The translations under genes and the position numbers were made by a program. Below, one piece after another: positions 21,170 to 37,178 of a stretch of DNA of 64,000 nucleotides (positions are counted from its first letter, which is position 1; every line of letters begins with the position of its first letter). The notes under the pieces are model-generated. The model ran no database searches. It saw only the letters and a program-made list of their open reading frames with translations, and was not told the DNA's origin. The DNA comes from Gammaproteobacteria bacterium (GTDB taxonomy: Bacteria > Pseudomonadota > Gammaproteobacteria > Steroidobacterales > Woeseiaceae): assembly GCA_029861535.1 (NCBI GenBank), contig JAOTZC010000003.1:62001-126000 (forward strand), written 5' to 3'.

Positions 21170-21252
21170 CGGCTGTGGGCGACGGGCTCCTCATCGTCAT
21201 GGCTCGCTCTGCTGCGCTTTACTTCCGATGAAGAGCCCGTCGCCCACAGCCG
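21170..21252. repeat. palindromic intergenic element, copy 1
   Basis: Two perfect 20-nt inverted arms (21170-21189 and 21233-21252) enclose a one-base mismatch and a further 6-bp stem (TCATCG/CGATGA). The 29-nt loop lies at 21197-21225. The loop is identical in reverse complement to 21367-21395 of copy 2, although the outer arms are unrelated. It lies between the convergent genes rpe and crp. Confidence 0.85.
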
Positions 21253-21343
21253 CATCGGATACTTTCGGGCACCGAAAACCTTCAAAAATCTAGTCGCGGC
21301 CGGCTAAATTTTGTCGACCACAGTGTCATGAAATTGTAGCGAT

Positions 21344-21418
21344 CGGGGTGTGAGGGGTTTTCGACCGAAGTAAAGCGCAGCAGAGCGAGCCATGAGGGAG
21401 AGGACCCCTCACACCCCG
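21344..21418. repeat. palindromic intergenic element, copy 2 (inverted)
   Basis: Perfect 15-nt inverted arms (21344-21358 and 21404-21418) surround the same 29-nt core as copy 1, in opposite orientation at 21367-21395. The bases flanking the core differ from copy 1 and pair only weakly. About 90 bp separate the copies. The two fill most of the 300-bp rpe-crp gap; the rest holds no recognisable gene. Confidence 0.85.
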
Positions 21419-21456
21419 GTTGTTACGCAATTGCGATGTTTTGGCCGAAACTCTTC

Positions 21457-22125
21457 TTACAACTTGCGGTTTGGTCTCGCCCCGTAGACAACGATGGTTT
21501 TGCCGCTGGCAGACACTAGGCCTTGCTCTTCGAGTACCTTGAGGACGCGACCGGCCATTTCGCGCGAGCAGCCAACCAGACGACTTAGCTCCTGACGGCT
21601 GACTTTAATTTGCATACCGTCCGGATGTGTCATCGCGTCGGGTTCGTTGCAAAGATCCATGATGGCATGAGCAACGCGGCCAGTGACATCGACAAAGGCG
21701 AGGTCGCCTAGCTTGCGGTTAGTGCGATCGAGGCGCGTTGCAAGTTGAGTCGCTAATTCGAAAACGAGACCAGGACTTTCGCTCGCGATTTGACGGAATC
21801 GTGGATACGTCATTTCGGCGATTTCGCACTCGGTGCGTGTCCGGACCCAAGCGCTTCGGGTCGGTTGCTCGTAGAACAATCCCATCTCGCCGAAGAACTG
21901 ACCCTTGTTCAAATAAGCCAGAACCATCTCATTGCCGTCCTCATCCTCGATCATGACTTCAACCGATCCGTCGACGATGTAGTACAGCACATCGGGCAAG
22001 TCTCCGGCATGGATCATGACCGTTTTCGAAGGAACGGTGCGTACGCGGCAATAGCTCAAAAAGCGATTTATCGCCGGTACGTCACTCAGGGTTTTCGCAT
22101 TGGATTGCATGGATTGGTCTCTCAT
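21457..22125 (-). CDS. crp: cAMP receptor protein (CRP/Vfr type)
   Basis: This is a global transcription regulator that binds cAMP in its N-terminal barrel and DNA through a C-terminal helix-turn-helix. The cAMP-binding stretch GEMGLFYEQPTRSAWVR keeps the Glu, Arg and Ser ligands of CRP, and the hinge TNRKLGDLAFVDVTGRVA is conserved. The recognition helix SRQELSRLVGCSREMAGR keeps the Arg-Glu-Arg set that reads TGTGA half-sites in E. coli. The C-terminus GKTIVVYGAR matches CRP closely. A TGTGA-N6-TCACA site occurs at 26626. A second possible start is the ATG at 22110. Confidence 0.92.
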   Translation of the reverse strand: MRDQSMQSNAKTLSDVPAINRFLSYCRVRTVPSKTVMIHAGDLPDVLYYIVDGSVEVMIEDEDGNEMVLAYLNKGQFFGEMGLFYEQPTRSAWVRTRTECEIAEMTYPRFRQIASESPGLVFELATQLATRLDRTNRKLGDLAFVDVTGRVAHAIMDLCNEPDAMTHPDGMQIKVSRQELSRLVGCSREMAGRVLKVLEEQGLVSASGKTIVVYGARPNRKL

Positions 22126-22190
22126 CGCTCAAGCGTCCCCCTTTTAATACAGTTCGCTCTGAAGGGCAAGCTAGAGCCTTGTTTTTCCTA

Positions 22191-22835
22191 TTAAACCCGG
22201 TAGGCGGTGGTCGTCATTATGCGCGCTGTGAGTTTCATCAGGCCTTTTAGCGGAGCTGGAAGCTCGGCCGCGCCGGCGTCGATGGCATCTTGACCGTGTA
22301 CAGCTTCCTCGTCACGCATCTTGCTTACGATCGCGCGGCTGCGCGTGTCGTCATCCGGCAGCCCATCGAGATGACTCGATAAATGAGCGCAAACCTGTCG
22401 CTCGGTCTCGGCAATAAAGCCAAGACTCCACCGGTCACCCAGCACACCGCTGGCCGCGCCGATCACAAATGAACCCGCATACCATAGTGGACTTAGCTTG
22501 CTCGGCGATTCGCCGAGTTCCTCGAGTCGCTGTTCGCACCAGGCAAGGTGGTCAAACTCCTCGTCAGCAGCATGCTGCATTTGCGTCTCAACTTGACTGT
22601 CTCGGGCCACGGCGGCGTGGCCTTGATACAAACCTTGTGCGGCGACCTCGCCGGCGTGATTGACTCGCATCAGGCCAGCTGCATGTGCCTTTTGTCGGGG
22701 ATTAAGGTTGCCTTCCTCAATCGCCGCCGCCGGGTTGGGCCGCGGTGATTGGCCGGCGGGCGCCGCGACGGTGCGAAGGGCGTTGTTGACGCCTACCAGC
22801 AAGCGATCCAGCGGCGTCAGGTTTCGACTGTGCAT
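22191..22835 (-). CDS. coq7: demethoxyubiquinone hydroxylase Coq7
   Basis: Coq7 is a di-iron monooxygenase that adds the C6 hydroxyl to demethoxyubiquinone, the penultimate ring modification in ubiquinone synthesis. The ferritin-like iron ligands are visible in LMRVNHAGEVAAQGLYQGH, EEFDHLAWCEQRL and RDEEAVHGQDA (Glu and ExxH motifs). The length is 214 residues. It complements ubiH and the ubiI-like gene elsewhere in the window. The start codon lies 6 nt after a TATAAT sequence (see the promoter entry). Confidence 0.95.
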   Translation of the reverse strand: MHSRNLTPLDRLLVGVNNALRTVAAPAGQSPRPNPAAAIEEGNLNPRQKAHAAGLMRVNHAGEVAAQGLYQGHAAVARDSQVETQMQHAADEEFDHLAWCEQRLEELGESPSKLSPLWYAGSFVIGAASGVLGDRWSLGFIAETERQVCAHLSSHLDGLPDDDTRSRAIVSKMRDEEAVHGQDAIDAGAAELPAPLKGLMKLTARIMTTTAYRV

Positions 22836-22841
22836 GCCAAC

Positions 22842-22847
22842 ATTATA
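22842..22847 (-). promoter_or_regulatory. candidate -10 box of coq7
   Basis: A perfect TATAAT on the minus strand ends 6 nt before the coq7 ATG, which would place the transcription start at or next to the A of the start codon. No convincing -35 hexamer sits at normal spacing. No ribosome binding site precedes the ATG. Confidence 0.4.
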
Positions 22848-22991
22848 GCAACTGCAGTCGCCTCAAGCGCGATTGCAAAGAATTGTGAAATTGACACCAA
22901 TGGATGAGTCGCAACGATATACTCCGCGGCTATTTAATCCCGCGGCCATGAACCCGGTGTCCATGTGTTCCAAGAACTTAGGAGATGGCAA

Positions 22992-23708
22992 ATGACTAAT
23001 CGTACGATTCCGGCACTCGCGTTCGTGCTTTTTGCGCTGCCGGTTTTGGCACAGGAGGAAGGGGAGGATGGTCCGTGGTCGGGTACTGCAACACTCGGCT
23101 ATCTCGCAACTTCCGGAAATACAGAGAATTCGAATCTGAACGCGGGTATCACAGTCGGTTATACGTCGGGCCGATGGGCACATCTGCTGGCAACGAAAGC
23201 TATCCACTCCGCTGACAATGATGTGACGACGGCCGAAGCGTATGAATTCGGCTGGAAGAGCGAGTTTTCGATTAATGAGTACGATTACCTGTTCGGCCGC
23301 GTAGATTGGCGCAAAGACCGTTTTTCGTCTTACGACGCCCAGGTGTCGGAGACAGTTGGCTACGGTCGCCGTTTGATCGATCGAGAGTTTCACAAGCTCA
23401 ATGCGGAAATTGGCGCTGGCGCGCGGCAATCGGATCTCGTCGACGGCACCAGCGAAAGTGAGTTTGTTGTCCGCGCTGGAATGGACTACACGTGGCTCAT
23501 CAGCGATACGTCCGAATTCGTGCAGACACTAACGGCTGAGGCAGGCGATACGAACACGTATCTCGAGTCGATCACCGCGCTGAAAGCGAGACTGGTCGGG
23601 GAGCTCGCATTGGTTGCTTCTTATACGGTCAAACACAACACGGATGTGCTGCCGCTGACAGAAAAGACGGACACCTATAGCGCGCTGTCACTCGAATATA
23701 CTTTCTGA
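22992..23708 (+). CDS. DUF481-family outer-membrane beta-barrel protein
   Basis: A signal peptide (MTNRTIPALAFVLFALPVLAQ) precedes a beta-rich mature protein with the DUF481 pattern SGTATLGYLATSGNTENSNLNAG and the alternating strands ending in a C-terminal aromatic (SLEYTF), typical of an outer-membrane barrel. The family is sometimes called salt-induced outer membrane protein (YdiY); its role is not established. The ATG at 22992 is chosen because GGAG lies just upstream and the signal peptide starts there; the frame is open from 22965. It has 238 residues. Confidence 0.88.
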   Translation: MTNRTIPALAFVLFALPVLAQEEGEDGPWSGTATLGYLATSGNTENSNLNAGITVGYTSGRWAHLLATKAIHSADNDVTTAEAYEFGWKSEFSINEYDYLFGRVDWRKDRFSSYDAQVSETVGYGRRLIDREFHKLNAEIGAGARQSDLVDGTSESEFVVRAGMDYTWLISDTSEFVQTLTAEAGDTNTYLESITALKARLVGELALVASYTVKHNTDVLPLTEKTDTYSALSLEYTF

Positions 23709-23808
23709 CCCAGCAAGACGCCGGCCAAGCACACTAAGTTATTGAATTAAAAGAATAAAAGGCGACCTGTGTTGGCCGCCGTGTGCGCGTCAATAAAGTC
23801 GCTACGCA

Positions 23809-23837
23809 TTGCAATGGGCAGCCCCGTAAAGTAGAAT
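23809..23837 (+). promoter_or_regulatory. sigma-70-type promoter of rplM-rpsI
   Basis: TTGCAA at 23809-23814 and TAGAAT at 23832-23837 are separated by 17 bp, a good sigma-70 arrangement. The predicted start near 23844 leaves a leader of about 105 nt before rplM. Confidence 0.6.
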
Positions 23838-23849
23838 TTCGCGCCTTTC

Positions 23850-23910
23850 GGCCCCCGGGCAGCTTTACGCCTGCCTGAAAGCCGGGCCGGATGGGGCTTA
23901 AGCCCGATCC
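23850..23910 (+). promoter_or_regulatory. structured leader of the rplM-rpsI mRNA
   Basis: The region folds into an outer stem of GGCCC (23850-23854) with GGGCC (23884-23888) enclosing an inner GCAG/CTGC stem. A second hairpin, 23889-23910, follows (GGAT...ATCC with GGGCTTAAGCCC inside). In E. coli L13 represses its own operon through the leader. Whether this leader does the same is inference. Confidence 0.45.
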
Positions 23911-23948
23911 TGTCTTATGCAAAAACTCGAACCCGGAAAACAAAGATC

Positions 23949-24383
23949 ATGAAGACGTATTCTGCGAAACCTGAAGAGGTTCGCCGCGATTGGTACATTG
24001 TCGACGCAACGGGCAAGACCCTCGGGCGGCTATCGACGGAGATCGCACGTCGCTTGCGTGGCAAGCATAAACCCGAATACACGCCACACGTCGATACAGG
24101 GGACTACATCGTTGTCGTGAACGCAGAAAAAGTACGCGTCACCGGTAACAAGCTCCGCGACAAGATTTACCATCACCATACGGGCTACATTGGCAACCTG
24201 AAGTCGGTCCCGCTCGACCAGCTGCTCAAGGAAACGCCTGAACGGGCAATTCAGTTTGCCGTCAAGGGCATGCTGCCGCGCGGCCCGCTGGGCCGAAAAA
24301 TGTTGTCGAAGCTGCGTGTCTTTGCAGGCCCTGAGCACAACCATACTGCACAGCAGCCGATCCCACTTGAACTGAACGCCTGA
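23949..24383 (+). CDS. rplM: 50S ribosomal protein L13
   Basis: L13 is an early-assembly 50S protein. The 144-residue sequence is full length with the conserved [32 protein letters not shown] and [13 protein letters not shown] segments. It heads the two-gene operon with rpsI, 39 bp downstream. Confidence 0.98.
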
Positions 24384-24422
24384 TTAGGCCACCGACGTAC
24401 TTAAGCCCAAGAGGCATTAGCA

Positions 24423-24812
24423 ATGAGTGAAAATTATTACGGCACCGGTCGTCGCAAAACATCCACGGCCCGTGTTTTCTTATCGCCAGGCAGTGGCGAA
24501 ATTAAAGTTAACGACCGTCCGCTGGACGTATTCTTTGGCCGAAAAACTGCACAGATGATTGTCCGCCAGCCGCTTGAGCTGACAAACGCTGGTGACAGAT
24601 TTGATGTCAACGTCACGGTGCGTGGCGGTGGCACTACTGGCCAGGCCGGTGCAATTCGCCATGGTCTGACGCGCGCTCTGATGCAATACGACGAAGCGCT
24701 GCGCGCGCCGCTCAGAAAGGCGGGTTTTGTTACCCGCGACGCGCGTGAGGTAGAGCGCAAGAAAGTGGGTCTGCGCAAGGCCCGCCGCGCGACACAATAC
24801 TCGAAGCGTTAG
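24423..24812 (+). CDS. rpsI: 30S ribosomal protein S9
   Basis: S9 contacts the P-site tRNA with its C-terminal tail. The protein has 129 residues with the conserved [16 protein letters not shown] start and the basic [11 protein letters not shown] end, in which the final Arg is the next-to-last residue pair typical of the family (SKR). It is co-transcribed with rplM and followed after 29 bp by tRNA-Gln. Confidence 0.98.
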
Positions 24813-24841
24813 TCGGGAGAGGTCGTCACAGACAACCTGTT

Positions 24842-24915
24842 TGGGGGATCGTCTAGTGGTAGGACTACGGACTCTGACTCCGTCAACGGGGGTTCGAATC
24901 CCTCTCCCCCAGCCA
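24842..24915 (+). tRNA. tRNA-Gln (anticodon CTG)
   Basis: The 74-nt gene has a 7-bp acceptor stem (TGGGGGA with TCCCCCA), a 5-bp anticodon stem (ACGGA/TCCGT) and anticodon CTG at 24874-24876. The T arm contains GGTTCGAATCC, discriminator G, and a genome-encoded CCA. The TGGGG 5' end is typical of glutamine tRNAs. It follows rpsI closely and may be read from the same promoter. Confidence 0.96.
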
Positions 24916-24963
24916 AACAATAAAAGCCCGCTATCGCGGGCTTTTATTGTTTGGCTGGGGGAG
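24904..24963. terminator. 28-bp palindrome overlapping the tRNA-Gln 3' end, acting as terminator
   Basis: Perfect inverted arms 24904-24931 and 24936-24963 flank a TATC loop. The inner part (AATAAAAGCCCGC/GCGGGCTTTTATT) resembles a bidirectional intrinsic terminator. The outer part mirrors the last 12 nt of the tRNA, including CCA. Such complete mirroring of a tRNA end is unusual. It lies between tRNA-Gln (+) and the 3' end of rpiA (-). Confidence 0.75.
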
Positions 24964-24986
24964 CGCCCGGATGAGGACCCTGTTCG
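24951..24986. repeat. 36-bp direct repeat, copy A
   Basis: This stretch matches 25090-25125 at 33 of 36 positions. Its first 13 bases are also the right end of the palindrome that mirrors the tRNA-Gln 3' end. Confidence 0.7.
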
Positions 24987-24992
24987 ATCCGA

Positions 24993-25038
24993 GGCGCACA
25001 AAGTGCGCCGACAGGCGAGCACGCCCGCGTGTTCGCCT
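24993..25038. other. two adjacent hairpins between the direct repeats
   Basis: GGCGCAC (24993-24999) pairs with GTGCGCC (25003-25009) across an AAA loop. An 11-nt arm at 25013-25023 pairs, with one G-T, with 25028-25038 across CCCG. No T tract follows, so neither is an obvious terminator. No coding frame is credible here. Confidence 0.5.
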
Positions 25039-25089
25039 ATCCCGTTCACAATGAAACATTGATCATCCGTAAGAAGGAGCTCTAGTTGA

Positions 25090-25125
25090 TTGGCTGGGGG
25101 AGCGCCCAGATGAGGGGCCTGTTCG
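25090..25125. repeat. 36-bp direct repeat, copy B
   Basis: This is the second copy of the repeat at 24951, differing at three positions. The two start 139 bp apart. It ends 9 bp before the rpiA stop codon. Confidence 0.7.
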
Positions 25126-25134
25126 CTTGTTAAA

Positions 25135-25794
25135 TTATGCCCGCATCTCTCGGACACCATCATCGCTAGCGACAAGCAAGATGTCGGCCGGTCGTTGCGC
25201 AAATAAGCCGACCGTCACGATTCCAGGGATCTGATTTAGACGATTCTCCAATTCGACCGGATTCGGGATTTGCATATCGTGGATATCGAGGATGTGATTG
25301 CCATTGTCGGTGACGAAGCGCTCTCGCCAGACGGGTTGAACGCGTAGCTTCAATAGTTGGCGAGACACGAATTCCTGAGCCATCGGTAGAACTTCGATCG
25401 GTAATGGGAATTCGCCAAGCATGCCAACAAGCTTCGAGTCGTCAACGATGCAGACAAAGCGACGCGATGCCCCGGCCAGCACTTTTTCGCGCGTTAGCGC
25501 TCCGCCGCCGCCTTTAATCAAATGCAGGCGCTTCGTCGACTCGTCTGCGCCATCAATGTACACATCGAGATCGCCAGCCTCGTTTAGCGTCTGGACCTCA
25601 AAACCGTGGTCCTCCAATAGCTTCGTCGACGTACGCGAGCTGGAGACGATGCCGTCTATCATGTCGCGGACGGTCGGCAGAAGTTCGATGAGGCAATTGA
25701 CCGTCGAGCCGGTGCCCACGCCGAGGCTCATACCGGGTTCGATGAACTGCAGCGAAGCCTCGGCCGCGATGCGTTTTTTTTCCGTTGCATCCAT
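25135..25794 (-). CDS. rpiA: ribose-5-phosphate isomerase A
   Basis: RpiA interconverts ribose 5-phosphate and ribulose 5-phosphate. The signatures GVGTGSTVNCLIELL, SSRTSTKLLEDHG, YIDGADESTKRLHLIKGGGGALTREK and the catalytic Asp and Glu regions are intact. The ATG at 25794 is preferred; a GTG two codons upstream (25800) is also possible. About 219 residues, the usual length. Its end faces tRNA-Gln. Confidence 0.96.
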   Translation of the reverse strand: MDATEKKRIAAEASLQFIEPGMSLGVGTGSTVNCLIELLPTVRDMIDGIVSSSRTSTKLLEDHGFEVQTLNEAGDLDVYIDGADESTKRLHLIKGGGGALTREKVLAGASRRFVCIVDDSKLVGMLGEFPLPIEVLPMAQEFVSRQLLKLRVQPVWRERFVTDNGNHILDIHDMQIPNPVELENRLNQIPGIVTVGLFAQRPADILLVASDDGVREMRA

Positions 25795-25878
25795 TGGCAC
25801 ACAGTCTGTGAGTTTTTACCGGGACCGAGCTTAGCGGATCAATCGGCCAATCGCCATGCGCGAGGTCATATTCAAACG

Positions 25879-25906
25879 AAAAGTGCCCGCGATTGCGGGC
25901 ACTTTT
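25879..25906 (-). terminator. bidirectional-looking terminator after the Lys-rich gene
   Basis: AAAAGTGCCCGC, a GATT loop and GCGGGCACTTTT form a perfect 12-bp stem. On the minus strand it lies 59 bp after the stop codon of the Lys/Arg-rich gene and upstream of rpiA, so it separates these two minus-strand genes. Confidence 0.75.
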
Positions 25907-25964
25907 ACTTGCTTGGAAGAAGGCTGGGGCGACTAAGTGCCCCTCTCTTCCCAGCGACCAGACG

Positions 25965-26552
25965 CTAGCGTTTCTTTCTGCGGGATGCTTTCCGCTTCGT
26001 CTTACGCTTGGCCTTGCGTTTCGTCTTACGCTTGGCTTTGCGTTTCGTCTTACGCTTGGCTTTGCGTTTCGTCTTACGCTTGGTCTTGCGTTTCGTCTTA
26101 CGCTTGGCTTTGCGTTTCGTCTTACGCTTGGCTTTGCGTTTCGTCTTACGCTTGGCTTTGCGTTTCGTCTTACGCTTGGTCTTGCGTTTCGTCTTACGCT
26201 TAGCCTTCTTCTTGGCTTTGCGTTTCGTCTTACGCTTGGTCTTACGCTTAGCCTTCTTCTTGGCCTTGCGTTTTGTCTTGCGTTTTGTCTTGCGTTTCGT
26301 CTTACGCTTGGCCTTCTTCTTGGCCTTGCGCTTCGTCTTACGCTTCGTCTTACGCTTCGTCTTACGTTTAGCCTTCTTCTTAGCTCTGCGTTTTGTTTTA
26401 CGCTTAGCTTTCTTTTTGGTCTTCCGCTTCGTCTTACGCTTGGCCTTGCGTTTTGTTACGCGACGTTTCGCGGTTTTCTTCCTCGTTACCTTGCGCTTCT
26501 TAGCGGATTTCCGCTTCGAAGCCTTCTTGCGTGACTTCTTCTTTGTAGCCAT
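25965..26552 (-). CDS. Lys/Arg-rich repeat protein, histone H1-like
   Basis: The 195-residue product is made almost entirely of Lys, Arg, Thr and Ala, in repeats of KRKTKRKA with variants KRKAKKKA. It begins MATKKKSRKKASKRKSAKKRK and ends SRRKKR. There is no hydrophobic core, so it is expected to be disordered and strongly cationic. Bacterial histone H1-like or AlgP-like proteins are the closest known type and bind DNA, but those have KPAA or KAAA repeats, so assignment is by composition. It has GGAG before its ATG. A perfect TGTGA-N6-TCACA site lies about 75 bp upstream of the start codon. The antisense frames are open only because of the repeat. Confidence 0.8.
   Translation of the reverse strand: MATKKKSRKKASKRKSAKKRKVTRKKTAKRRVTKRKAKRKTKRKTKKKAKRKTKRRAKKKAKRKTKRKTKRKTKRKAKKKAKRKTKRKTKRKTKRKAKKKAKRKTKRKTKRKAKKKAKRKTKRKTKRKTKRKAKRKTKRKAKRKTKRKAKRKTKRKTKRKTKRKAKRKTKRKAKRKTKRKAKRKTKRKASRRKKR
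25993..26452. repeat. 24-bp tandem repeat array inside the Lys-rich gene
   Basis: The plus-strand unit is roughly CGTTTCGTCTTACGCTTGGC plus TTTG, repeated with variants and occasional 12-bp insertions (CTTCTT-type). Each unit encodes eight residues. Such arrays change length by slippage, always in frame here. Confidence 0.85.
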
Positions 26553-26584
26553 GGTTTTCTCCGTGTCGGGTACCCGGCGTTGAG

Positions 26585-26590
26585 TATATA
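26585..26590 (-). promoter_or_regulatory. candidate -10 region of the Lys-rich gene
   Basis: TATATA/TATACT overlap on the minus strand at 26583-26590, about 35 bp before the ATG. A weak TTGCTG -35 lies 18 bp further upstream. The CRP-type site at 26626 would be centred roughly 55-60 bp upstream of the start. Confidence 0.4.
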
Positions 26591-26625
26591 CATTAAAAGC
26601 AAAAAATCCAGCAAGTTAGCCGCGT

Positions 26626-26641
26626 TGTGACGGCCGTCACA
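26626..26641. promoter_or_regulatory. perfect CRP-type operator
   Basis: TGTGACGGCCGTCACA is a 16-bp perfect palindrome of the form TGTGA-N6-TCACA, the CRP consensus. It lies between the ygfA 3' end and the promoter of the Lys/Arg-rich gene, so that gene is the likely target. The regulator encoded at 21457 has the matching recognition helix. Binding itself is inference. Confidence 0.65.
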
Positions 26642-26658
26642 TTGTGTTCGACAAAGGT

Positions 26659-26672
26659 GTCGACTAGTCGAC
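26659..26672. repeat. 14-bp perfect palindrome near the CRP-type site
   Basis: GTCGACTAGTCGAC is a perfect palindrome 17 bp from the CRP-type site. Nearby TCGACA/TGTCGA (26648-26663) and TCGATTT/AAATCGA (26688-26704) add further dyads. They may be operators for an additional factor, or the end structure of the ygfA transcript. Confidence 0.4.
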
Positions 26673-26763
26673 GAAAAGTGTTCGGAGTCGATTTCGAAAA
26701 TCGAGTGCAAACATCACGCTCGAAAACAGATGTGTCGACGAATAAAAAGCGTAAAAGCAAGCT

Positions 26764-27333
26764 CTAGCGAGATTCGTTAAAAACCCGATAAAGCCGTATA
26801 TCCCAAGGATTTGGCAGTATTTTCTCGACTTTTTGGCAATCGAACGCAAGTCCTACCAGTTTTGGCCGTAACCAATGTCGCTTGTGTTTGAGAAACGAAA
26901 AAGTACGGTCGTAGTAGCCACCGCCCATTCCAATTCTGTGCCACTGAGGATCAAATACGACTAACGGTGTCAGGATAACATCGAGGTCGTTTTTGGAAAT
27001 TTCTGCGCCTGTTACCGGTTCCCATACCCCGAATCGGCTTTTCTCGAGCTGCGTTGCGCGCTCGACGCGAACAAAGCGCAACTGTCGCTTATCGGCGACG
27101 ACCGGTGCGAAAATCGATTTTCCCGCACACCACGCGCGATCGAAAATCAATCTGGTGTCGACTTCGTCCTGCATCGCGATGTAACACGCAATGTTGTTTG
27201 CGGACAAGAATAGATTGGATCGCAGGAAGCTTCGTTGAATACGTGCTGATGCCAAATCCCGATAATCATCGCTAAGAGCTCGGCGCGAATTTCTGGCAAT
27301 AGTTCTGAGCTCTGCATTCGACGATGTTGTCAT
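26764..27333 (-). CDS. ygfA: 5-formyltetrahydrofolate cyclo-ligase
   Basis: The enzyme converts 5-formyl-THF to 5,10-methenyl-THF with ATP, recycling a folate that inhibits other one-carbon enzymes. The signature GMGGGYYDRTF and the N-terminal basic helix are present; 189 residues is normal. It lies downstream of zapA and the 6S RNA, the conserved gammaproteobacterial arrangement. 5-Formyl-THF arises from serine hydroxymethyltransferase, which links it to the glycine cleavage genes 10 kb away. Confidence 0.93.
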   Translation of the reverse strand: MTTSSNAELRTIARNSRRALSDDYRDLASARIQRSFLRSNLFLSANNIACYIAMQDEVDTRLIFDRAWCAGKSIFAPVVADKRQLRFVRVERATQLEKSRFGVWEPVTGAEISKNDLDVILTPLVVFDPQWHRIGMGGGYYDRTFSFLKHKRHWLRPKLVGLAFDCQKVEKILPNPWDIRLYRVFNESR

Positions 27334-27377
27334 ACTACGGGCGCGTCTAGAGGATTGTGATTTTCAACGAATTAAAG

Positions 27378-27573
27378 AGGAGACGCCTCCCGCCTGTGCC
27401 GTTACCGAACCGTCGCTCTCGAACCGGAGCAACAGGTGGGGCCAGCCGTGGCAGCAACAGGCTTTCCGGAAATACCGGTCCTGCGCAAATGCTACCGACA
27501 GTGCACGGCCCCGAGGTAAAGATTTAGGGTCGAAAGGTATCCAGGTCGATATCGAACACTGCAGGAGGCGTCA
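27378..27573 (-). ncRNA. ssrS: 6S RNA
   Basis: 6S RNA mimics an open promoter and sequesters sigma-70 RNA polymerase in stationary phase. The position between zapA and ygfA on the same strand is the conserved locus. A closing stem is visible: GACGCCTCC at the 5' end (27572-27564) pairs with GGAGGCGTC near the 3' end (27390-27382), a span of about 191 nt. The internal GACCGGTATTTCCGG hairpin followed by AAAGCC resembles the E. coli element at the equivalent place. Exact ends are approximate. Confidence 0.82.
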
Positions 27574-27589
27574 ATTTGTTGCCGCGTCC

Positions 27590-27904
27590 CTATAGATCCA
27601 ATTGCTGGGCGTCACCCAACGCATTCTCGACGCGGTCTGAAATCAGTTTTAGGCGATTGCTGATGTCACCTTCAAGTACTCGATCGCGAGCCTGTGCATG
27701 CAGCAGATCGTTTGCCATGTTCAATGCCGCCATTACGGCGATGCGGTCAAGTCCCACAATACGGCCAGTGTCTCGAATTTCCCGCATTTTTGTATTCAAA
27801 GCTTCCGCTGAATCAAGTAAATCAGTGCGTTCGTTTGCGGGACAGGCGACTTGATATTCCTTATCGAGAATCCGGACACTAACCTGGGCGTGTTGTTCGT
27901 TCAT
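27590..27904 (-). CDS. zapA: cell division protein ZapA
   Basis: ZapA binds and bundles FtsZ filaments at the division ring. The 104-residue protein starts VSVRILDKEYQVACPANER, followed by the C-terminal coiled coil containing RIAVMAALNMANDLL, matching the family. It abuts the coiled-coil gene upstream and ends 17 bp before the 6S RNA. Confidence 0.94.
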   Translation of the reverse strand: MNEQHAQVSVRILDKEYQVACPANERTDLLDSAEALNTKMREIRDTGRIVGLDRIAVMAALNMANDLLHAQARDRVLEGDISNRLKLISDRVENALGDAQQLDL

Positions 27905-28135
27905 TTAAGATCCTTGCTCCATTGCTTTCAATCGGCCAATCATCGCTTCGACGCGCGCACGTACTTGCTCATTTTTCTGCAATAGGTTTGCGCGCTCCGC
28001 AGTTAGGACGTCCTGTCTTTGTTTCAGTGACTTATTCTCGTCCTGGAGCTGATCACAGACTTGAACCAAGGCGTCGACGCGTTTCTCGAGTCGCTTCAGT
28101 TCGTGCTCAAATGCGGTGCTGATGTCGTCGGCCAT
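27905..28135 (-). CDS. ZapB-like coiled-coil protein (TIGR02449 type)
   Basis: A 76-residue protein predicted to be one long coiled coil: LKRLEKRVDALVQVCDQLQDENKSLKQRQ. It resembles the small partner protein found directly upstream of zapA in many gammaproteobacteria and related in style to ZapB. The ATG at 28135 is chosen because it gives MADDISTAFEHELKRLE; the frame is open a little further. It immediately precedes zapA with no gap. A role in Z-ring organisation is inferred from family and neighbour. Confidence 0.8.
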   Translation of the reverse strand: MADDISTAFEHELKRLEKRVDALVQVCDQLQDENKSLKQRQDVLTAERANLLQKNEQVRARVEAMIGRLKAMEQGS

Positions 28136-28231
28136 GAATCCAATATAGTCAGGCCGTCCGGCAGAATCAATCGCCAAAAACGGGTTGGCATGGGATCATT
28201 GGCGTTTCGTGGCCGACAACGACACATTAAG

Positions 28232-28807
28232 ATGACAAGCGACATTAGTCATGACCAGCTCAATGATGCGCTCAGGGGTACGGGCAGTAGCTGGGATGCG
28301 GCCCAGACGCACGGGCTTGTGTCGGGCAAGCTCGCGGTGCTGGGGGCCGCAGCCGGACCCGCGTGGCTGGAACAGGTGCTCGAGGGTACGGACGCTTCAA
28401 GCGCGTTACGTAAAGAATGCGAGGACATGCTCAGCACGCTGTATCAGTCAACCCATCGACAGTTGGCGGAACGATTGTCAGAGTTTGCGCCATTATTGCC
28501 GGGCGATCACGACAGCAAAAACGCGCGAACCGAAGCACTCGCGCACTGGTGTGAGGGTTACTTGCATGGGCTGGTTTCCGCGCCACATGACGACCCACTA
28601 AAGCAACGTCTGGCGGCCGAGCCGGTGGCGGGCATCATCAAGGACATGCTATCGATCACACAGGTGGCCATCGATGATCACGGCACCGACAGCGGTGATG
28701 ACGACAACGATGAACAGGCTTATGTAGAGATTGTCGAGTATTTGCGCGTCGCCGCGCAGCTCGTCTACGAAGAACTTGCTGAACAGAGACCACAAATAGT
28801 GCAATGA
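28232..28807 (+). CDS. ygfB: UPF0149-family protein YgfB
   Basis: The 191-residue protein has the family features: an N-terminal Asp/His-rich start, FAPLLPGDHDS, the ALAHWCEGYLHGL motif and an acidic stretch (DDHGTDSGDDDNDEQAY). The ATG at 28232 gives MTSDISHDQLNDAL; the frame is open from 28061, inside the divergent gene. YgfB in Pseudomonas has been described as modulating the AlpA regulator; its role in most species is not clear. Its stop overlaps the pepP ATG, as in E. coli. Confidence 0.92.
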   Translation: MTSDISHDQLNDALRGTGSSWDAAQTHGLVSGKLAVLGAAAGPAWLEQVLEGTDASSALRKECEDMLSTLYQSTHRQLAERLSEFAPLLPGDHDSKNARTEALAHWCEGYLHGLVSAPHDDPLKQRLAAEPVAGIIKDMLSITQVAIDDHGTDSGDDDNDEQAYVEIVEYLRVAAQLVYEELAEQRPQIVQ

Positions 28808-30108
28808 AACTTCAGGAATTTGCCCGGCGCCGCAATCAACTAATGCGCATGGTTGGCCGAGATGGGGTGGCGATACTGCCGTCTGCACCTGTGCGAATGC
28901 GCAGTCGCGACGTTGAATATCGCTATCGGCAAGACAGTGATTTTTACTATCTGAGCGGCTTTGCCGAACCGGACGCGGTCGCTGTGCTTGTTCCGGGCAG
29001 AAAGAATGGTGAGTACGTTCTTTTTTGTCGCGAGCGTGACGAGGAAAAGGAACTGTGGGACGGAGCGAGAGCCGGTCCCGATGGCGCAATAGAATCCTAC
29101 GGGGTCGACGATGCGTTTCCGATCGACGACATTGACGATATTCTGCCGGGCATCATCGAATCTTGCACGCGCGTGTACTACACGATGGGCATGTATACGG
29201 ATTTCGACATTCGCATTGCCGACTGGATCAATTCGCTGCGCTCGCGTGAATCCAAAGGCGTGCATACTCCGCAGGAATTTGTCGCGCTCGACCACCTACT
29301 GCACGATATGCGCTTGTACAAGAGTCGCGCAGAGGTATCAGCGATGCGCAAATCGGCCAAAGTTGCGGTTGGAGCGCACGAACGTGCGATACGGACCGTG
29401 CGGGCCGGCCTGTATGAATATGAGGTTGAAGCCGAGTTTCGCCACGAGTTTCGCCGCAGCGACGCCTGGGTATCGTACAACCCGATTGTCGGGTCGGGTG
29501 CGAACTCCTGCACATTGCATTACGTCGACAACAATCAGCAGCTAGCTGACGGCGATTTGCTGTTGATCGATGCCGGTTGCGAACTGGATTACTACGCATC
29601 TGACATTACCCGGACCATACCAGTCAATGGCAAATTCAGCCCCGAGCAACGCGCGGTTTATGACATTGTTCTCGAGGCACAGCTCGCTGCAATCGACAAA
29701 ACGCGCAAGGGCAACCATTGGAACGAACCGCACGACGCCGCAGTTAAAATCATCACCCGCGGACTCAAACGTCTCGGATTGCTGAATGGGACGCCGGCAA
29801 AACTGATCAAGGACGGCGCATACCGACAGTTTTTCATGCACCGTACTGGCCACTGGATCGGCATGGATGTTCACGACGTCGGTGATTACAAGGTTGGCGA
29901 CCAATGGCGCTTGCTTGAGCCTGGCATGGTAACGACGGTTGAACCGGGCATTTATATTGCGGCGCAGAGTAATATTCCGACGCGATTTCACAATATTGGC
30001 ATTCGTATTGAAGACGATGTGTTGGTGACCACAAAAGGTCCGGATGTGCTTAGCAAGGGATTAGTCAAGCACCCTGACGAAATCGAGGCAATGATGGCCG
30101 CGTCATGA
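28804..30108 (+). CDS. pepP: Xaa-Pro aminopeptidase
   Basis: PepP removes N-terminal residues preceding proline. It has the creatinase-like N-terminal domain and a C-terminal pita-bread metallopeptidase domain with LIDAGCELDYYASDITRTIPVNG, HRTGHWIGMDVHDVG and the Glu-containing GMVTTVEPGIYI and GIRIEDDV motifs, covering the dinuclear metal ligands. It has 434 residues, the usual length. The start overlaps ygfB and the stop overlaps ubiH (ATGA on both sides). Confidence 0.97.
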   Translation: MKLQEFARRRNQLMRMVGRDGVAILPSAPVRMRSRDVEYRYRQDSDFYYLSGFAEPDAVAVLVPGRKNGEYVLFCRERDEEKELWDGARAGPDGAIESYGVDDAFPIDDIDDILPGIIESCTRVYYTMGMYTDFDIRIADWINSLRSRESKGVHTPQEFVALDHLLHDMRLYKSRAEVSAMRKSAKVAVGAHERAIRTVRAGLYEYEVEAEFRHEFRRSDAWVSYNPIVGSGANSCTLHYVDNNQQLADGDLLLIDAGCELDYYASDITRTIPVNGKFSPEQRAVYDIVLEAQLAAIDKTRKGNHWNEPHDAAVKIITRGLKRLGLLNGTPAKLIKDGAYRQFFMHRTGHWIGMDVHDVGDYKVGDQWRLLEPGMVTTVEPGIYIAAQSNIPTRFHNIGIRIEDDVLVTTKGPDVLSKGLVKHPDEIEAMMAAS

Positions 30109-31361
30109 ATGTTGCAGCGGACAAAGCCTACGACGTCGTTATTGCCGGAGGCGGCATGATCGGCACTAGCCTTGCGCTGGCCCTGTCTCCGCTCGGTCTG
30201 CGAGTAGCGATGGTCGAGGCGGTCGAGCGCAAGGCATCGTCGCAGCCAAGCTTCGACGATCGCTCGACGGCGCTTTCGCGCAGCACGCAGCGCATGTTCG
30301 AGGCCATGGGTCTTTGGCCCGACATCGTCGCGGCGTCGACACCGATTCGACGCATTCACGTTTCCGATAAGGGCCGCTTCGGTTTCTCTCATATCGATGC
30401 TGAGGAGCAAAACGTCGAAGCGCTCGGCTATGTGGTGATCAACCGCATACTGGGTGGTGTTCTACACACCGCACTCGACAAGGCTGGGTCGATCGATATT
30501 CTGTGCCCGGCGCGCATTAGCAAGATTTCCCTGGCGCCCGAACATGCGACAGCCATTGTCGATCATGCAGACGGTAGGACCGACACGTTGCGTTGTCGCC
30601 TACTGGTTGCGGCCGACGGTGCGAATTCCAGTGTTCGTAACATGATGGGTATCACGGCCATACAGAGCCGCTATCGGCAGCACGCGGTGATTGGCAACTT
30701 GCTGCCGGAAAAGCCGCCAAACAATATCGCGTACGAACGATTTACTGACTGCGGCCCGCTCGCATTGTTGCCGGTCGCAGACAATCGCGCGGCGTTTGTC
30801 TGGACTGTCAGCGAAACTGACGCGTCAACGGTGCTCGAACTCGACGATGACGCCTTCATCGCAAAATTGCAGGCCGCATTCGGCCATAGGCTCGGCGAGT
30901 TTTCCAAGGTCGGCACGCGGGCTGCGTACCCACTAATGCTCAGCAAAGCAGTGCGCCTTACGGCGACGCGCAGCGTGCTGGTCGGTAACGCGGCGCACGG
31001 TCTGCACCCTGTCGCCGCACAGGGCTTTAATCTTGGTATGCGAGACGTTGCAGCGCTCTGCGACTGCATCGCCGACAATCATGCAAGTGGCACAGTTGAA
31101 AGCGCTATTGGCGATATGGGTGACTCGGCCCTGCTGGAACGCTATGCGACATGGCGCAAGAGCGATCAGAAAAAGTTGGTGCAATTTACTGACGGGTTGG
31201 TGCGAATGTTCGGCTCCACCAATACACCCATTCGGATGTTGCGCAATATCGGCATGCTCGGATTTGACCTGCTTCCCGGCGTACGCTCGGAGTTTGCCCG
31301 ACACACAATGGGCCTGGCCGGCCGATTGCCGCGTCTATCGCGCGGCGTACCGTTGATATGA
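30105..31361 (+). CDS. ubiH: ubiquinone hydroxylase UbiH
   Basis: UbiH is a flavoprotein monooxygenase that hydroxylates C1 of the ubiquinone ring. It has the FAD-binding motif VVIAGGGMIGTSLALAL, the DG motif region (LLVAADGANSSVRNMMGI) and the GD motif (VLVGNAAHGLHPVAAQGFNLGMRD). Of the two adjacent homologues this one is in the E. coli ubiH position after pepP. The length is 418 residues. Its TGA overlaps the next gene by ATGA. Confidence 0.92.
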   Translation: MNVAADKAYDVVIAGGGMIGTSLALALSPLGLRVAMVEAVERKASSQPSFDDRSTALSRSTQRMFEAMGLWPDIVAASTPIRRIHVSDKGRFGFSHIDAEEQNVEALGYVVINRILGGVLHTALDKAGSIDILCPARISKISLAPEHATAIVDHADGRTDTLRCRLLVAADGANSSVRNMMGITAIQSRYRQHAVIGNLLPEKPPNNIAYERFTDCGPLALLPVADNRAAFVWTVSETDASTVLELDDDAFIAKLQAAFGHRLGEFSKVGTRAAYPLMLSKAVRLTATRSVLVGNAAHGLHPVAAQGFNLGMRDVAALCDCIADNHASGTVESAIGDMGDSALLERYATWRKSDQKKLVQFTDGLVRMFGSTNTPIRMLRNIGMLGFDLLPGVRSEFARHTMGLAGRLPRLSRGVPLI

Positions 31362-32566
31362 AGCAGAACTACGACATTGTCGTTGTCGGCGCCGGCATAA
31401 CCGGACTCACGGTCGCCGCGATGCTCGCGAAAGGCGCGCAAGCCGACCGTTGGAACATCACGCTCGTCGACGCGGCGGCGCGGCCCGTGGTCGATTCCTC
31501 GGACGAGCTTGCGTTGCGCGTTTCGGCAATCTCCATAGGGTCTGCTGACCTTCTGAATTGCATTGGCGCCTGGAGTATTGTCGAGTCTGGTCGAATCTGT
31601 CCTTATGATCGCATGCGAGTATGGGACGAATCGGATGATCCGAATGGGCCATCGACGCTTCGTTTTGACGCCGATGAATTCGCGATACCGCACCTCGGAT
31701 ACATCGTTGAGAATATCCGGCTGCGGCATGCGTTGTTGGAAGTGCTCGATGAGACCGAGGTCGCGTTGACCTTTTCGTCGCCGCTCAAGGCGCTTCAATC
31801 GCATGGTCGCGGCCATCAGATTACGCTGCACGATGGCAAGACTCTCGAGGCCGATCTTGTCATTGCTGCTGATGGCGCGAGGTCTTTCGTGCGCAATAGT
31901 GCTGGTATCGACGTAGCGACGCGTCCGTATGAACAAACGGCATTCGTCACGCATCTGCGGCCCGACAAACCGCATGCGGCAACCGCCTGGCAGCGTTTTC
32001 TGCGTGACGGACCACTGGGCATATTGCCGCTGGACGACGGACGGGTGTCAGTGGTTTGGTCGACGACGCCGGAGAAAGCTGAGCGCGCGTTGAAATGCAG
32101 CGACAAAGATCTCGGACATTTGCTTTCCGATGCGTCCGACGCGGTACTCGGACGGTTGCTCGTGGCCGGGCCGCGTGGCGCGTACCCGCTTGCCGCACAA
32201 CATGCCGAGCGCTATGTTGCGCACGGCATTGCGTTGATCGGTGACGCCGCGCACACTGTGCACCCGCTTGCCGGGCAGGGAGCCAATCTTGGACTTGCCG
32301 ATGCGCGGGCACTGGCCGATGTGATTCAAGCTGCACTTGAGAATGGTGAATATCCTGCCGATCGGCCTGTACTTCGTCGTTACGAGCGCATGCGCAAAGG
32401 CGAAAACGCGACCATGATGCACTTCATTACTGGTCTCAATCGACTGTTTGCTTCAGACTCCGTTGTGCTTGGCGAGCTAAGAAGAGCGGGAATGGCGCTG
32501 TTCAATCGCAGTGGCCCGATTCGGCAACATGTCGTCGATGTCGCACTGGGAGGCGGCAGACGGTGA
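31358..32566 (+). CDS. ubiI: UbiH/UbiI-family ubiquinone hydroxylase
   Basis: A second flavin monooxygenase of the same family: FAD motif VVVGAGITGLTVAAMLA, VIAADGARSFVRNSAGID and LIGDAAHTVHPLAGQGANLGLADA. By position after ubiH it corresponds to ubiI (visC), which hydroxylates C5 of the ring. The split of hydroxylation positions among UbiH, UbiI, UbiF and Coq7 varies between species, and this genome also has coq7. The length is 402 residues. Exact regiochemistry is inference. Confidence 0.88.
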   Translation: MKQNYDIVVVGAGITGLTVAAMLAKGAQADRWNITLVDAAARPVVDSSDELALRVSAISIGSADLLNCIGAWSIVESGRICPYDRMRVWDESDDPNGPSTLRFDADEFAIPHLGYIVENIRLRHALLEVLDETEVALTFSSPLKALQSHGRGHQITLHDGKTLEADLVIAADGARSFVRNSAGIDVATRPYEQTAFVTHLRPDKPHAATAWQRFLRDGPLGILPLDDGRVSVVWSTTPEKAERALKCSDKDLGHLLSDASDAVLGRLLVAGPRGAYPLAAQHAERYVAHGIALIGDAAHTVHPLAGQGANLGLADARALADVIQAALENGEYPADRPVLRRYERMRKGENATMMHFITGLNRLFASDSVVLGELRRAGMALFNRSGPIRQHVVDVALGGGRR

Positions 32567-32596
32567 CGCGGCTCAACCGCGGCGTTAAAAGGCACA

Positions 32597-34117
32597 ATGA
32601 AGCAGAAATACGTTTACGCACTCGCGATATTGCTGACCGTCATCGGCGTGTCGGTATTCACCTACAAATGGCGTGTGCTCGGTTTTCCGCTGACCGATAA
32701 CCAAGATACGACAGTCTGGACTCTCGAGTCTGCGATAAAATTTGACTCGGGTCCCGGTTCGATCAAGGTCAACCTGCTGATACCGACGTTGACCCCGGGT
32801 TTTCGGGTGTTGAACGAAAACCCAGTATCACGTGGCTACGGATTCAGTCTGAACTACGGTAGCAGCGGCCGTGAAGCACAGTGGGCTGTGCGCCGTGCCG
32901 ATGGTCCGCAGACCATTTACTACCGGATTTCGGTGTACGAAGACGCGTCCGCCGAGCAAGAGGACACGACACCGCCGTTTCCGCCATCGCCAGTCATCAA
33001 CGAGCCGTTCAAGACCGCTGTCGAAGTCCTGGTCGGAGACGTGCGGGAACACTCCGCGGACACAGGATCGTTTACAACAGAATTGCTGCGCCGGATGAAT
33101 GATCCGTCGCCCGATCCGAATGTCGAATTGTTGCTTTCGAGTGCCGGTAATCGCGCGGATTTTGTCGACACGGTCACAATGATGCTGGCCGAAGCACGCA
33201 TTCCGGCCCGCATGGTGCACGGCTTTCCGCTGACGGGGCAGCAACGTCATGCGGAACCCGTCGTCTGGCTCGAAGTACACGACGGCGACCAGTGGCTCTA
33301 TTTCAATCCGTCGACTGGTGAGGAAAATTTGCCGGATCGCTTTTTTGTCTGGTGGCGTGGCAACGAGCCGCTGATCAACGTTGAGGGCGGGAGCGGTGTC
33401 GAAGTCGACTTCGCGGTGCAGGAAAATCATGTCGATGCTGTTGCGATCGCCGAGACTTACGCGGCGAAAAGCAATGCCAGGCTAATCGATTTTTCGCTCT
33501 ATAGCTTGCCGATATCGACGCAGGCGGTATATAGCGTGCTGCTGATGATTCCGATTGGCGCACTCATCATGGTCGTGATGAGAAATCTCGTTGGCATTGA
33601 TGCCTTCGGTACCTTCATGCCGGTGCTAATCGCACTCGCGTTTCGCGAAACACAACTGTTCTGGGGCATCGTACTGTTCACGCTGCTGGTGGCATTGGGC
33701 CTCAGCATCCGCTTCATGCTCGAGCGGCTACGCTTGTTGCTCGTGCCGCGACTCAGCGCCGTGCTTATCGTTGTTGTCTTGTTGATGCTGCTAATAAGCC
33801 TGATATCGCACAAACTCGGCCTTGAGACGGGCCTGTCCGTGGCATTATTTCCAATGGTCATCATTGCAATGACGATCGAACGCATGTCGGTCGTGTGGGA
33901 AGAACGTGGTCCGAGTGACGCGATTCGCGGTGCCTTCGGTAGCCTGGTCGTCGCCATGTTCGCGTATATCGGTATGGGCATTGGCTGGCTCGAACACCTG
34001 ATTTTCACGTTTCCCGAGCTGCTGCTGCTGATTCTCGCGCTCGTCTTGCTCGCAGGCCGATATACTGGCTACCGATTACTCGAGCTGACGCGCTTCAAAG
34101 CGCTGGCAGGAAATTGA
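32597..34117 (+). CDS. inactive transglutaminase fused to multi-TM domain (UUP1 type)
   Basis: Residues 1-25 form a membrane anchor. About 30-290 form a periplasmic transglutaminase-like domain: the core helix reads ELLLSSAGNRADFVDTVTMML, where the catalytic Cys position is not Cys, so the domain is expected to be inactive, while the His-containing HAEPVVWLEVHDG strand remains. From about residue 305 there are around six to seven hydrophobic segments to the C-terminus. This is the known architecture of inactive transglutaminase plus seven-TM proteins that pair with an ATP-grasp ligase. Its stop overlaps the ligase start (ATGA), showing tight coupling. Confidence 0.85.
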   Translation: MKQKYVYALAILLTVIGVSVFTYKWRVLGFPLTDNQDTTVWTLESAIKFDSGPGSIKVNLLIPTLTPGFRVLNENPVSRGYGFSLNYGSSGREAQWAVRRADGPQTIYYRISVYEDASAEQEDTTPPFPPSPVINEPFKTAVEVLVGDVREHSADTGSFTTELLRRMNDPSPDPNVELLLSSAGNRADFVDTVTMMLAEARIPARMVHGFPLTGQQRHAEPVVWLEVHDGDQWLYFNPSTGEENLPDRFFVWWRGNEPLINVEGGSGVEVDFAVQENHVDAVAIAETYAAKSNARLIDFSLYSLPISTQAVYSVLLMIPIGALIMVVMRNLVGIDAFGTFMPVLIALAFRETQLFWGIVLFTLLVALGLSIRFMLERLRLLLVPRLSAVLIVVVLLMLLISLISHKLGLETGLSVALFPMVIIAMTIERMSVVWEERGPSDAIRGAFGSLVVAMFAYIGMGIGWLEHLIFTFPELLLLILALVLLAGRYTGYRLLELTRFKALAGN

Positions 34118-35097
34118 TGTTCAATGTTGCGAAAAAGCTGCGAGCGGAAGGCATACTCGGCCTGAACGAACGCAACGCGAATTTCATCATGCGCCTCAAT
34201 CCGCGGCGACTGTATCCGCGCGTGGATGATAAGTCGATTACAAAGCAGTTGGCGCTCGACGCCGGTATGGCGGTACCGGATTTGTACGGCATGATCGAAA
34301 ATCAACGCGAAGTTCGAAATTTTGGTGACATCGTTGCAGAGCGCCATAGTTTCGTCGTAAAGCCTGCGCAAGGCAGCGGTGGCGACGGCATTCTCGTTGT
34401 GACGGGCCGCAGTCAGCGCAGGCGCAACAGTTTCCGTCTCTCCAGCGGCCTATTGATCTCAAAGGCCGAAATCGAGCATCACATTTCGAATATCGTTGGT
34501 GGCCAATACAGCCTAAGCGGCAATCCCGACAAGGCGCTGATCGAATATTGCGTGCGCTTCGACCCAACCTTTGACGAAGTCAGCTACCAGGGCGTGCCCG
34601 ACGTTCGCATTATCGTGTATCGGGGTTATCCGGCAATGGCGATGGTGCGACTGCCGACACGTGCGTCTGACGGTAAGGCAAATCTACATCAGGGGGCTGT
34701 CGGTGCCGGTGTCGATATGTCCAGCGGCGAGACCCTGACCGGTGTTTTGCAAAACGACATAACTGAAGAGCACCCAGACACCGGCGCGCTGATCACAGGA
34801 TTGCTGATTCCGCAATGGAACTTCATCTTACAGTTGGCCGCACGCGGTTTTGACGTAACTGGCCTGGGTTACCTGGGCGTCGATATCGTGATTGATCGCG
34901 ATCGCGGTCCATTGATTCTCGAGATGAATGCGCGGCCAGGCCTAAATATTCAGATTGCCAACTGCACCGGCCTTTCAAAGCGCATAAAGCGCATTGACGA
35001 GATTTACGATCCGGCTAAGAAAGCTGAAGAGCGTGCGCGTATCTCCCGAAAAGAGTTTCCCACACAACGACAGACGTCGATACTGTTCGACGTTTGA
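34114..35097 (+). CDS. RimK-related alpha-L-glutamate ligase-like ATP-grasp protein
   Basis: An ATP-grasp enzyme of 327 residues: FVVKPAQGSGGDGILVVTGR is the phosphate-binding grasp and DIVIDRDRGPLILEMNARPGLNIQIANCTGL contains the Asp/Glu/Asn metal ligands. The family is annotated as alpha-L-glutamate ligase-like and is expected to add an amino acid to a peptide, protein or small molecule; its substrate is unknown. It starts within the stop of the inactive transglutaminase gene. The retropepsin-like protease often found with this pair is not adjacent here. Confidence 0.86.
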   Translation: MMFNVAKKLRAEGILGLNERNANFIMRLNPRRLYPRVDDKSITKQLALDAGMAVPDLYGMIENQREVRNFGDIVAERHSFVVKPAQGSGGDGILVVTGRSQRRRNSFRLSSGLLISKAEIEHHISNIVGGQYSLSGNPDKALIEYCVRFDPTFDEVSYQGVPDVRIIVYRGYPAMAMVRLPTRASDGKANLHQGAVGAGVDMSSGETLTGVLQNDITEEHPDTGALITGLLIPQWNFILQLAARGFDVTGLGYLGVDIVIDRDRGPLILEMNARPGLNIQIANCTGLSKRIKRIDEIYDPAKKAEERARISRKEFPTQRQTSILFDV

Positions 35098-35113
35098 GGT
35101 TTGACAACTTGAC

Positions 35114-35235
35114 TGCGGGTGTAACACTACTCATCGTCATGGCTCGGTCCGATAGCTAGGATTAACGCAACCCATCGTGAATTACGTTGTTGAATACGCT
35201 GCGCTTTACTTCCGATGAATAGTGTCACACCTGCA
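35114..35235. repeat. palindromic intergenic element, copy 3 with internal insertion
   Basis: Outer arms 35114-35128 and 35221-35235 are complementary at 13 of 15 positions plus one G-T pair. The core repeats copy 1 at its two ends: 35131-35146 equals 21191-21206, and the segment ending 35218 equals the GCTGCGCTTTACTTCCGATG part. About 50 bp of extra sequence interrupts the middle. As with the other two copies, it lies between convergent genes. Confidence 0.8.
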
Positions 35236-35258
35236 ATCGCTTGGCGGCCATTCGAAAG

Positions 35259-37152: not shown

Positions 37153-37178
37153 TGCCACACTAATCAATAGGGTGCACA

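Follow-up and report, generated by a model that had tools for sequence, protein, structure and literature searches.

Three palindromic elements in a 64,000-nt stretch of DNA from a Woeseiaceae bacterium (contig JAOTZC010000003.1, positions 62,001 to 126,000; the whole stretch is called the window) raise the question of what kind of sequence keeps one core between two arms, which differ from copy to copy and still pair within each copy. A preliminary description, made from the letters alone, had proposed terminators with a mobile core or products of hairpin transposition. The elements probably belong, at a rough probability of two in three, to a new family of non-autonomous mobile palindromes, comparable to the repetitive extragenic palindromes (REPs) and bacterial interspersed mosaic elements (BIMEs) or to the miniature inverted-repeat transposable elements (MITEs). 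It seems to add a new variety to the known small mobile DNAs and not to be a wholly new system.

When the covariance model R1 was run on the window, exactly three matches were obtained up to E = 10, all of them the copies described before. Copy 1 (21171..21251, 96.5 bits) lies on the minus strand, which is the strand with the constrained fold and reads GAAGTAAAGCGCA...GAGCCATGA; its 29-nt core (21197..21225, minus strand) was aligned in the element alignment. Copy 2 (21341..21421, plus strand, 83.7 bits), with its 29-nt core at 21367..21395 (plus strand) and tandem G-A mismatches (CGACC/GGGAG) in the neck, forms an inverted pair with copy 1 across an 89-nt spacer (21252..21340), and the two cores are identical over all 29 nt, as had been noticed, with that of copy 2 inverted. 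Copy 3 (35111..35238, minus strand, 67.7 bits) represents a long-core subtype, in which a core of 76 nt (35137..35212, minus strand) combines the conserved outer strands with an additional inner stem that varies; this subtype has six listed copies in the genome of the window. The complementarity of the arms within each copy was found again (20/20 in copy 1, 15/15 in copy 2 and nearly complete in copy 3), but the length first given for the arms did not stand, the usual stem being 26 bp, neck included, and the unit 81 nt.

The anatomy of the family was read from 203 distinct elements, which were gathered by their core (at most 2 mismatches per half) from 27 of 101 genomes drawn. Among them, 167 come from the five genomes G000, G027, G048, G056 and G087, and copy 3 is not included, a length limit of the script having excluded 76-nt cores. 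Most typically the element measures 26+29+26 = 81 nt. Its edges are sharp in G000 (60 copies) and G027 (54 copies), where the information falls to about zero from nt 27 on both sides, and less sharp in G048 (21 copies), where a weak signal was seen at +27. The core measured 29 nt in 183 of the 203 elements (variants of 24, 30, 39 and 74-75 nt occurred) and consists of a small inner hairpin between two strands that are conserved (about UAAAGCGCA and GAGCCA). On the GAAGTAAAG strand the core halves read about GAAGTAAAGCGCA and GAGCCATGA around this hairpin, in which two inner pairs were doubly changed in 5 and 2 of 89 copies, and tandem G-A necks (CGACC/GGGAG, CGAG/CGAG) were present in some copies. 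Among the copies with a 29-nt core within G000, G027, G048 and G056, the identity between copies was 90-96% for the cores, a conservation inflated because the copies were collected by core similarity, and 50-55% for the arms, which share a weak family consensus instead of being unrelated as first supposed. Further subtypes, with GAAAATAAAGCGCAG..CATTTC cores in the same kind of palindrome, were observed in G010 (L343, L346, L349, L356, L359 and L361), and a distinct ACATAAAGCGAGCGCAGCGAGACAG core sits in such a palindrome in the same set of loci.

The pairing of the arms, rather than their sequence, is what the family maintains, as had been suggested from the three copies. In an alignment of 89 copies less than 80% alike, selected from 157 that have 29-nt cores and pair at 19/26 positions or more, the structure was paired in 91.7% of cells, compared with 63.8% after shuffling, the percentage being raised by this pairing pre-filter. 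Doubly changed cells numbered 741, against 194 (sd 16) in shuffles and 133-177 in a control with the partner slid by 1-3 columns, and all 26 of the 26 stem pairs covaried, with changes on both sides. In a comparison made free of the filter, 77-91% of positions were paired between an arm and its own partner, and 56-66% between arms of different copies. By shuffles and by the arms of other copies alike, the complementarity of the flanks was far above chance.

A G-T pair on one strand corresponds to an A-C mismatch on the opposite strand. The positional table omitted 22 poorly paired elements of the 203, and the strand-bias count used 175, in which 354 G-T/G-U pairs were found on the GAAGTAAAG strand against 49 A-C. 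When the two positions with the strongest bias were excluded, 245 G-T and 48 A-C were left, and element by element 145 had more G-T, 8 had more A-C and 22 were ties. The bias, which is seen directly in the letters, suggests that one folded single strand of this orientation, RNA or DNA, is under constraint, and stems that diverge yet stay paired are best explained by selection on the fold with G-T intermediates. A ratio of 354:49 fits strand-specific folding of the REP/BIME type, and a functional RNA would give the same bias.

Such an RNA could be a resident structured RNA of 3' untranslated regions, in which the GAAGUAAAGCGCA...GAGCCAUGA RNA (the GAAGUAAAG strand) would bind a cellular protein via its internal loop and protect, end or mark transcripts, the copies being selected. 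A loop kept by sequence between covarying stems typically marks an RNA motif, and the confinement of the G-U bias to one strand, the tandem G-A necks, the inner hairpin with its few double changes and the placement of the elements just after stop codons all agree with this explanation. The RNA would be new, since no family of Rfam 15 matched the elements when the window was searched at the gathering score and the first two copies with an E-value limit of 10, the latter returning only microRNA and snoRNA models far below threshold. But G-T is tolerated in single-stranded DNA too, the copies standing singly in co-directional gaps have no preference for a transcribed constrained strand (21 such and 31 opposite), and 13 of the 73 genomes of the genus have no match while several have 1 or 2. 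A resident RNA is regarded as unlikely.

A mutational origin of the paired arms was weighed as well, in which template switching or fold-back copying would rewrite one arm from the other, so that arm identity would be kept by mutation and not by selection. Near-perfect arms in most copies of G458 and G481, two genomes outside the genus, speak for this, the copies differing mutually. It gives no reason for the strong preference of G-T over A-C on one strand, and an arm retained in two species changed little between them; such rewriting is rather doubtful. As an alternative to selection on the fold, the stems of G481 may arise at insertion.

The three copies had been open to dismissal as a coincidental duplication, but the core turned out to be spread genome-wide. 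In the 76%-complete genome of 2.57 Mb the core 13-mer TGCGCTTTACTTC occurred 56 times exactly (0 in a reversed control), a 12-mer from the other core half 45 times, and the 29-nt core with at most 3 mismatches at 41 sites. Within the genus, at least one match was obtained in 60 of 73 genomes, with 0 to 61 per genome; at most 63 candidates were scored per genome under stricter filters, and these copy numbers are lower bounds. Another genus of the same family gave one core match (G007, in the draw of 101 genomes). The covariance model was also run on a sample of 369 genomes from the class; with 12 candidates scored in each, under stricter filters that may miss weak relatives, it found G000, G010 and G154. 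The core pattern was found in nine of the 369, and G000, G010, G154, G458 and G252 hold palindromic elements on inspection, while the remaining four seem to be chance matches.

Outside the genus, 6 copies were counted in G154, 14 in G458, 1 in G252 and 30 in G481, and the core, between arms that are different and longer, turns up here and there in two further families of the class. Of 36 genomes in the family of G458, three have the element, with 14, 30 and 1 copies. A core element immediately downstream of ffh was found in two genera of one other family (L542, L560); an empty site at ffh was not shown among the relatives of G481, which are too distant. The exact 29-nt core was absent from a general contig collection, which may omit the genome of the window and its close relatives, and plasmids and phages queried with a 38-nt core gave chance-level matches only (best E about 0.5 to 5, among the best 12 of 26 and 8 of 8 records). 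Viral contigs held 51 stretches with the pattern, of which two reached 17/24 arm pairs, and neither resembles a real element.

Two related species, G048 and G056, could be compared over about 204 kb at about 84% DNA identity. Some elements are shared, others face unrelated sequence, including GTAGGAGCG-type palindromes, and one copy is truncated, with 24/26 letters of the retained arm unchanged. Among the matches listed, one gene gap can hold elements of different arms and orientations in several species, for example the L250 site in G027, G087, G036, G082, G048 and G056. With their patchy copy number, sporadic spread and turnover the elements look mobile, in line with the transposition idea of the preliminary description. 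At L300 1973-2053 and L304 1974-2054 of G048 the element's own arms mismatch, and each matches a different member of the pair that G056 has at this site, as though the arms had been exchanged by recombination between cores.

The copies outside the genus bear on the origin of the arms. In G458 these are 54-64 bp long, with one of about 80, and 9-bp direct repeats occur at the arm edges, matching in at least 8/9 letters in 6 of 14 copies and perfectly in 3; the mean best 9-mer match was 7.79, against 6.92 in permutations (maximum 7.29). The corresponding match in G154 (6 copies) was 7.67 against at most 7.33 in permutations, but it lay away from the arm edges. In G481, 29 of the 30 matched cores were identical in an exact-pattern search, which is blind to diverged cores, and this identity suggests a recent expansion. 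The arms of the 15 copies read there measure 52-134 bp and are mostly near perfect, several being unlike any other, and an inner stretch of about 17 letters and a REP-like outer stretch are common to about half of the copies read.

Identical cores with several unique arms in G481 are the strongest hint of a core that makes its own palindrome. The core alone would then move, and fold-back synthesis at its hairpin would duplicate the adjacent DNA as an inverted repeat, so that each insertion would build a perfect, copy-specific stem, and the 81-nt form of Woeseia would descend from such a core by domestication, its length having become fixed. The stretches shared by about half of the copies read are contrary to such an origin, which is considered quite improbable. 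The same G481 copies, and the differing arms at gene ends in general, might also reflect a mobile core inserted into the tips of pre-existing terminator or other hairpins, with the arms belonging to the host site. But the arms of G000 and G027 are fixed at 26, their consensus stops at nt 27 and no strong T column follows; in addition, the duplications of G458 lie outside the arms, and perfect palindromes of 50-130 bp would be unstable before any insertion. Insertion into hairpin tips is very improbable.

The idea of an intrinsic terminator was not supported by the family profiles, where no strongly T-enriched column was observed at either edge. On the 3' side none of the columns 27-41 exceeded about 43% T in G000 and G027, as read from the profiles of the family and not from single copies. 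A few copies (L020, L058) have a separate, ordinary terminator-like hairpin and T run close by.

The niche of the elements is the 3' end of genes, convergent gaps above all. With genes called by a simple codon-score script, 116 of the 203 elements lay in convergent gaps, 72 in co-directional ones (42 and 30), 5 in divergent ones and 2 inside open reading frames (ORFs), and 8 had no neighbour. On 16 element-bearing contigs or contig pieces of G048 and G056, an element was held by 10/24 convergent, 10/120 co-directional and 0/54 divergent gaps of at least 81 nt (p = 1.7e-4 and 1.6e-6), fractions which are inflated in absolute terms because the contigs were chosen for carrying elements. The two species are not independent because their contigs overlap; taken singly, with convergent compared to co-directional gaps, the convergent counts were 3/11 in G048 (p = 0.085) and 7/13 in G056 (p = 0.0009). 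Among the 144 elements without a neighbouring copy, 87 were convergent, their median distances to the two stops being 12 and 10 nt, with 61 and 67 of them within 25 nt. Element-free convergent gaps had a median of 18 nt.

Of 28 pairs of adjacent copies, 26 were inverted and had the same polarity, a trait of REPs and BIMEs, and no relation between the spacers of different pairs is apparent. In co-directional gaps, copies standing alone had no clear bias in orientation (31 against 21, p = 0.21). The gene context, for which a tabulation of neighbour orientation had been proposed, is non-random, and a fixed polarity is confined to paired copies. A first impression of one-sided orientation was lost after the 49 elements with a neighbouring copy were excluded.

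REPs are often located between convergent genes, and GTAGGAGCG-type palindromes were seen in such gaps here; the placement of the present elements is REP-like. Doublets of the GTAGGAGCG type in G048 and G056 (e.g. L529 2100-2250) lay in 10 convergent, 8 co-directional and 1 divergent gaps, and they are present in G048 although that genome has no Y1 match. In the accessible parts of PMC8266576 and PMC3733652, REP/BIME/REPIN systems with TnpA-REP (REP-associated tyrosine transposase, RAYT) are described as short multicopy intergenic palindromes, with inverted dimers often of two subtypes and with G-T in the stems, of which the folded single strand is recognised and the complement is not. As far as these parts go, the elements are alike in being many-copy intergenic palindromes with inverted pairs and G-T pairing in stems. 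They are unlike REPs in their length of 81 nt (20-50 in REPs), in their conserved two-strand core inside and variable stem outside, in the lack of a GTAG/CGTC edge tag (G000 and G027 have no conserved letters beyond nt 26, and G048 has no such tag) and in the lack of an association with a Y1 gene. The initial remark that they are unlike a simple REP accordingly holds for the anatomy, whereas placement, inverted pairing and turnover are REP/BIME-like. As in CGTC-tagged REPs, CGTCATTGCGAG occurs in several copies of G481, there as part of the arms; the name of the CGTC motif follows general usage and PMC3733652, in the accessible part of which the core of the element is not described.

QMITE2 of Coxiella burnetii is, according to the available portion of PMC5896051, a small palindromic MITE with tens of copies, mainly at gene 3' ends or intergenic, and with variable direct repeats of 7-11 nt. 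Set beside it by description and not by its letters, the elements are similarly palindromic and placed at gene 3' ends, and any identity would concern the 9-bp-flanked copies of G458; QMITE2 is longer, at 150-190 bp, and contains a GTAG REP in the same portion of that source. Terminal inverted repeats, a MITE trait, are present, the arms being sharp-ended in G000 and G027 and near-perfect in most G458 copies. The family fails the REP tag and RAYT tests and lacks, in Woeseia, the duplications of a standard MITE, yet it works like both. No description of it was found among the papers listed, which included those on Woeseia repeats and core strings, most subscription papers lying outside the search.

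As non-autonomous mobile palindromes, the elements would be recognised at the core by a putative protein acting on the folded single strand, which might then cut or copy the element out and re-insert it. Insertions would survive mainly where they are harmless, shortly past stop codons and above all between convergent genes. Changes in the stem would be tolerated if the fold of the strand is kept, often via G-T/G-U intermediates, while the core could not change. A settled hairpin may secondarily protect or end both transcripts, which is plausible because it is often nearly all the DNA between the two stops.

Several results weigh against mobility. No mobilising enzyme was found, with Y1 (PF01797) as the sole transposase searched for, and copy number had a median of 6 in the 46 genomes with Y1 and 9 in the 21 without (p = 0.56; 67 of the 73 genus genomes, with G099, not among the matches listed, counted as negative); G048, with 33 matches, has no Y1 match. 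A 9-bp target-site duplication was absent from the Woeseia copies (203 elements) and from G481. The comparison of G048 and G056 gave no clean empty site, the intergenic DNA being mostly unrelated, and none of 80 rpe loci from named genomes, several of which are Woeseiaceae, had the element in the DNA fetched, which fits mobility and equally loss. The nearly unchanged arm (24/26) retained in two species is what a resident functional element would show as well, and the conservation of the core is in part a matter of ascertainment, the copies having been found by it. Target duplications at a fixed position were likewise lacking in the Woeseia copies, where 2-nt matches close to the edge were in slight excess (104 against a mean of 77 and a maximum of 86). 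The RAYT/Y1 transposase, named early as a possible helper, was rejected, with no link by copy number or by presence (18/27 core-positive and 46/74 core-negative genomes).

The family offers a clean natural case of a stem kept by shape and a loop kept by sequence, in which the strand bias shows which single strand is read. The UAAAGCGCA/GAGCCA module is a ready target for finding a nucleic-acid-binding protein or mobilising enzyme. The elements also mark a second palindromic family which, alongside REP-like repeats, occupies gaps where genes converge, in a host lineage which is widely distributed in marine sediment according to the accessible text of PMC7082342.

In the window, all three copies sit between convergent ORFs, in agreement with the first description. 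Copies 1 and 2 lie between rpe, encoding ribulose-phosphate 3-epimerase (20488..21156, plus strand), whose stop is 14 nt from copy 1, and a convergent gene for a Crp-family regulator (21457..22125, minus strand). Several of the best rpe relatives come from Woeseiaceae MAGs, and a gammaproteobacterium of this family is the probable host. Copy 3 lies between a sugar-transfer ATP-grasp gene upstream (34114..35097, plus strand) and a DUF885 gene convergent on it (35259..37016, minus strand). Other features of the window were a perfect 28-bp inverted repeat (24904-24963) overlapping the 3' end of a tRNA gene (24842-24912), and beside it a 47-nt direct repeat, 85% identical (24940-25125). A long 12/24-nt repeat array with 30 overlapping register copies occupied a coding stretch (25872-26501), and a 6S RNA (27383-27570, minus strand) and a glycine riboswitch (37167-37257, plus strand) were also present.

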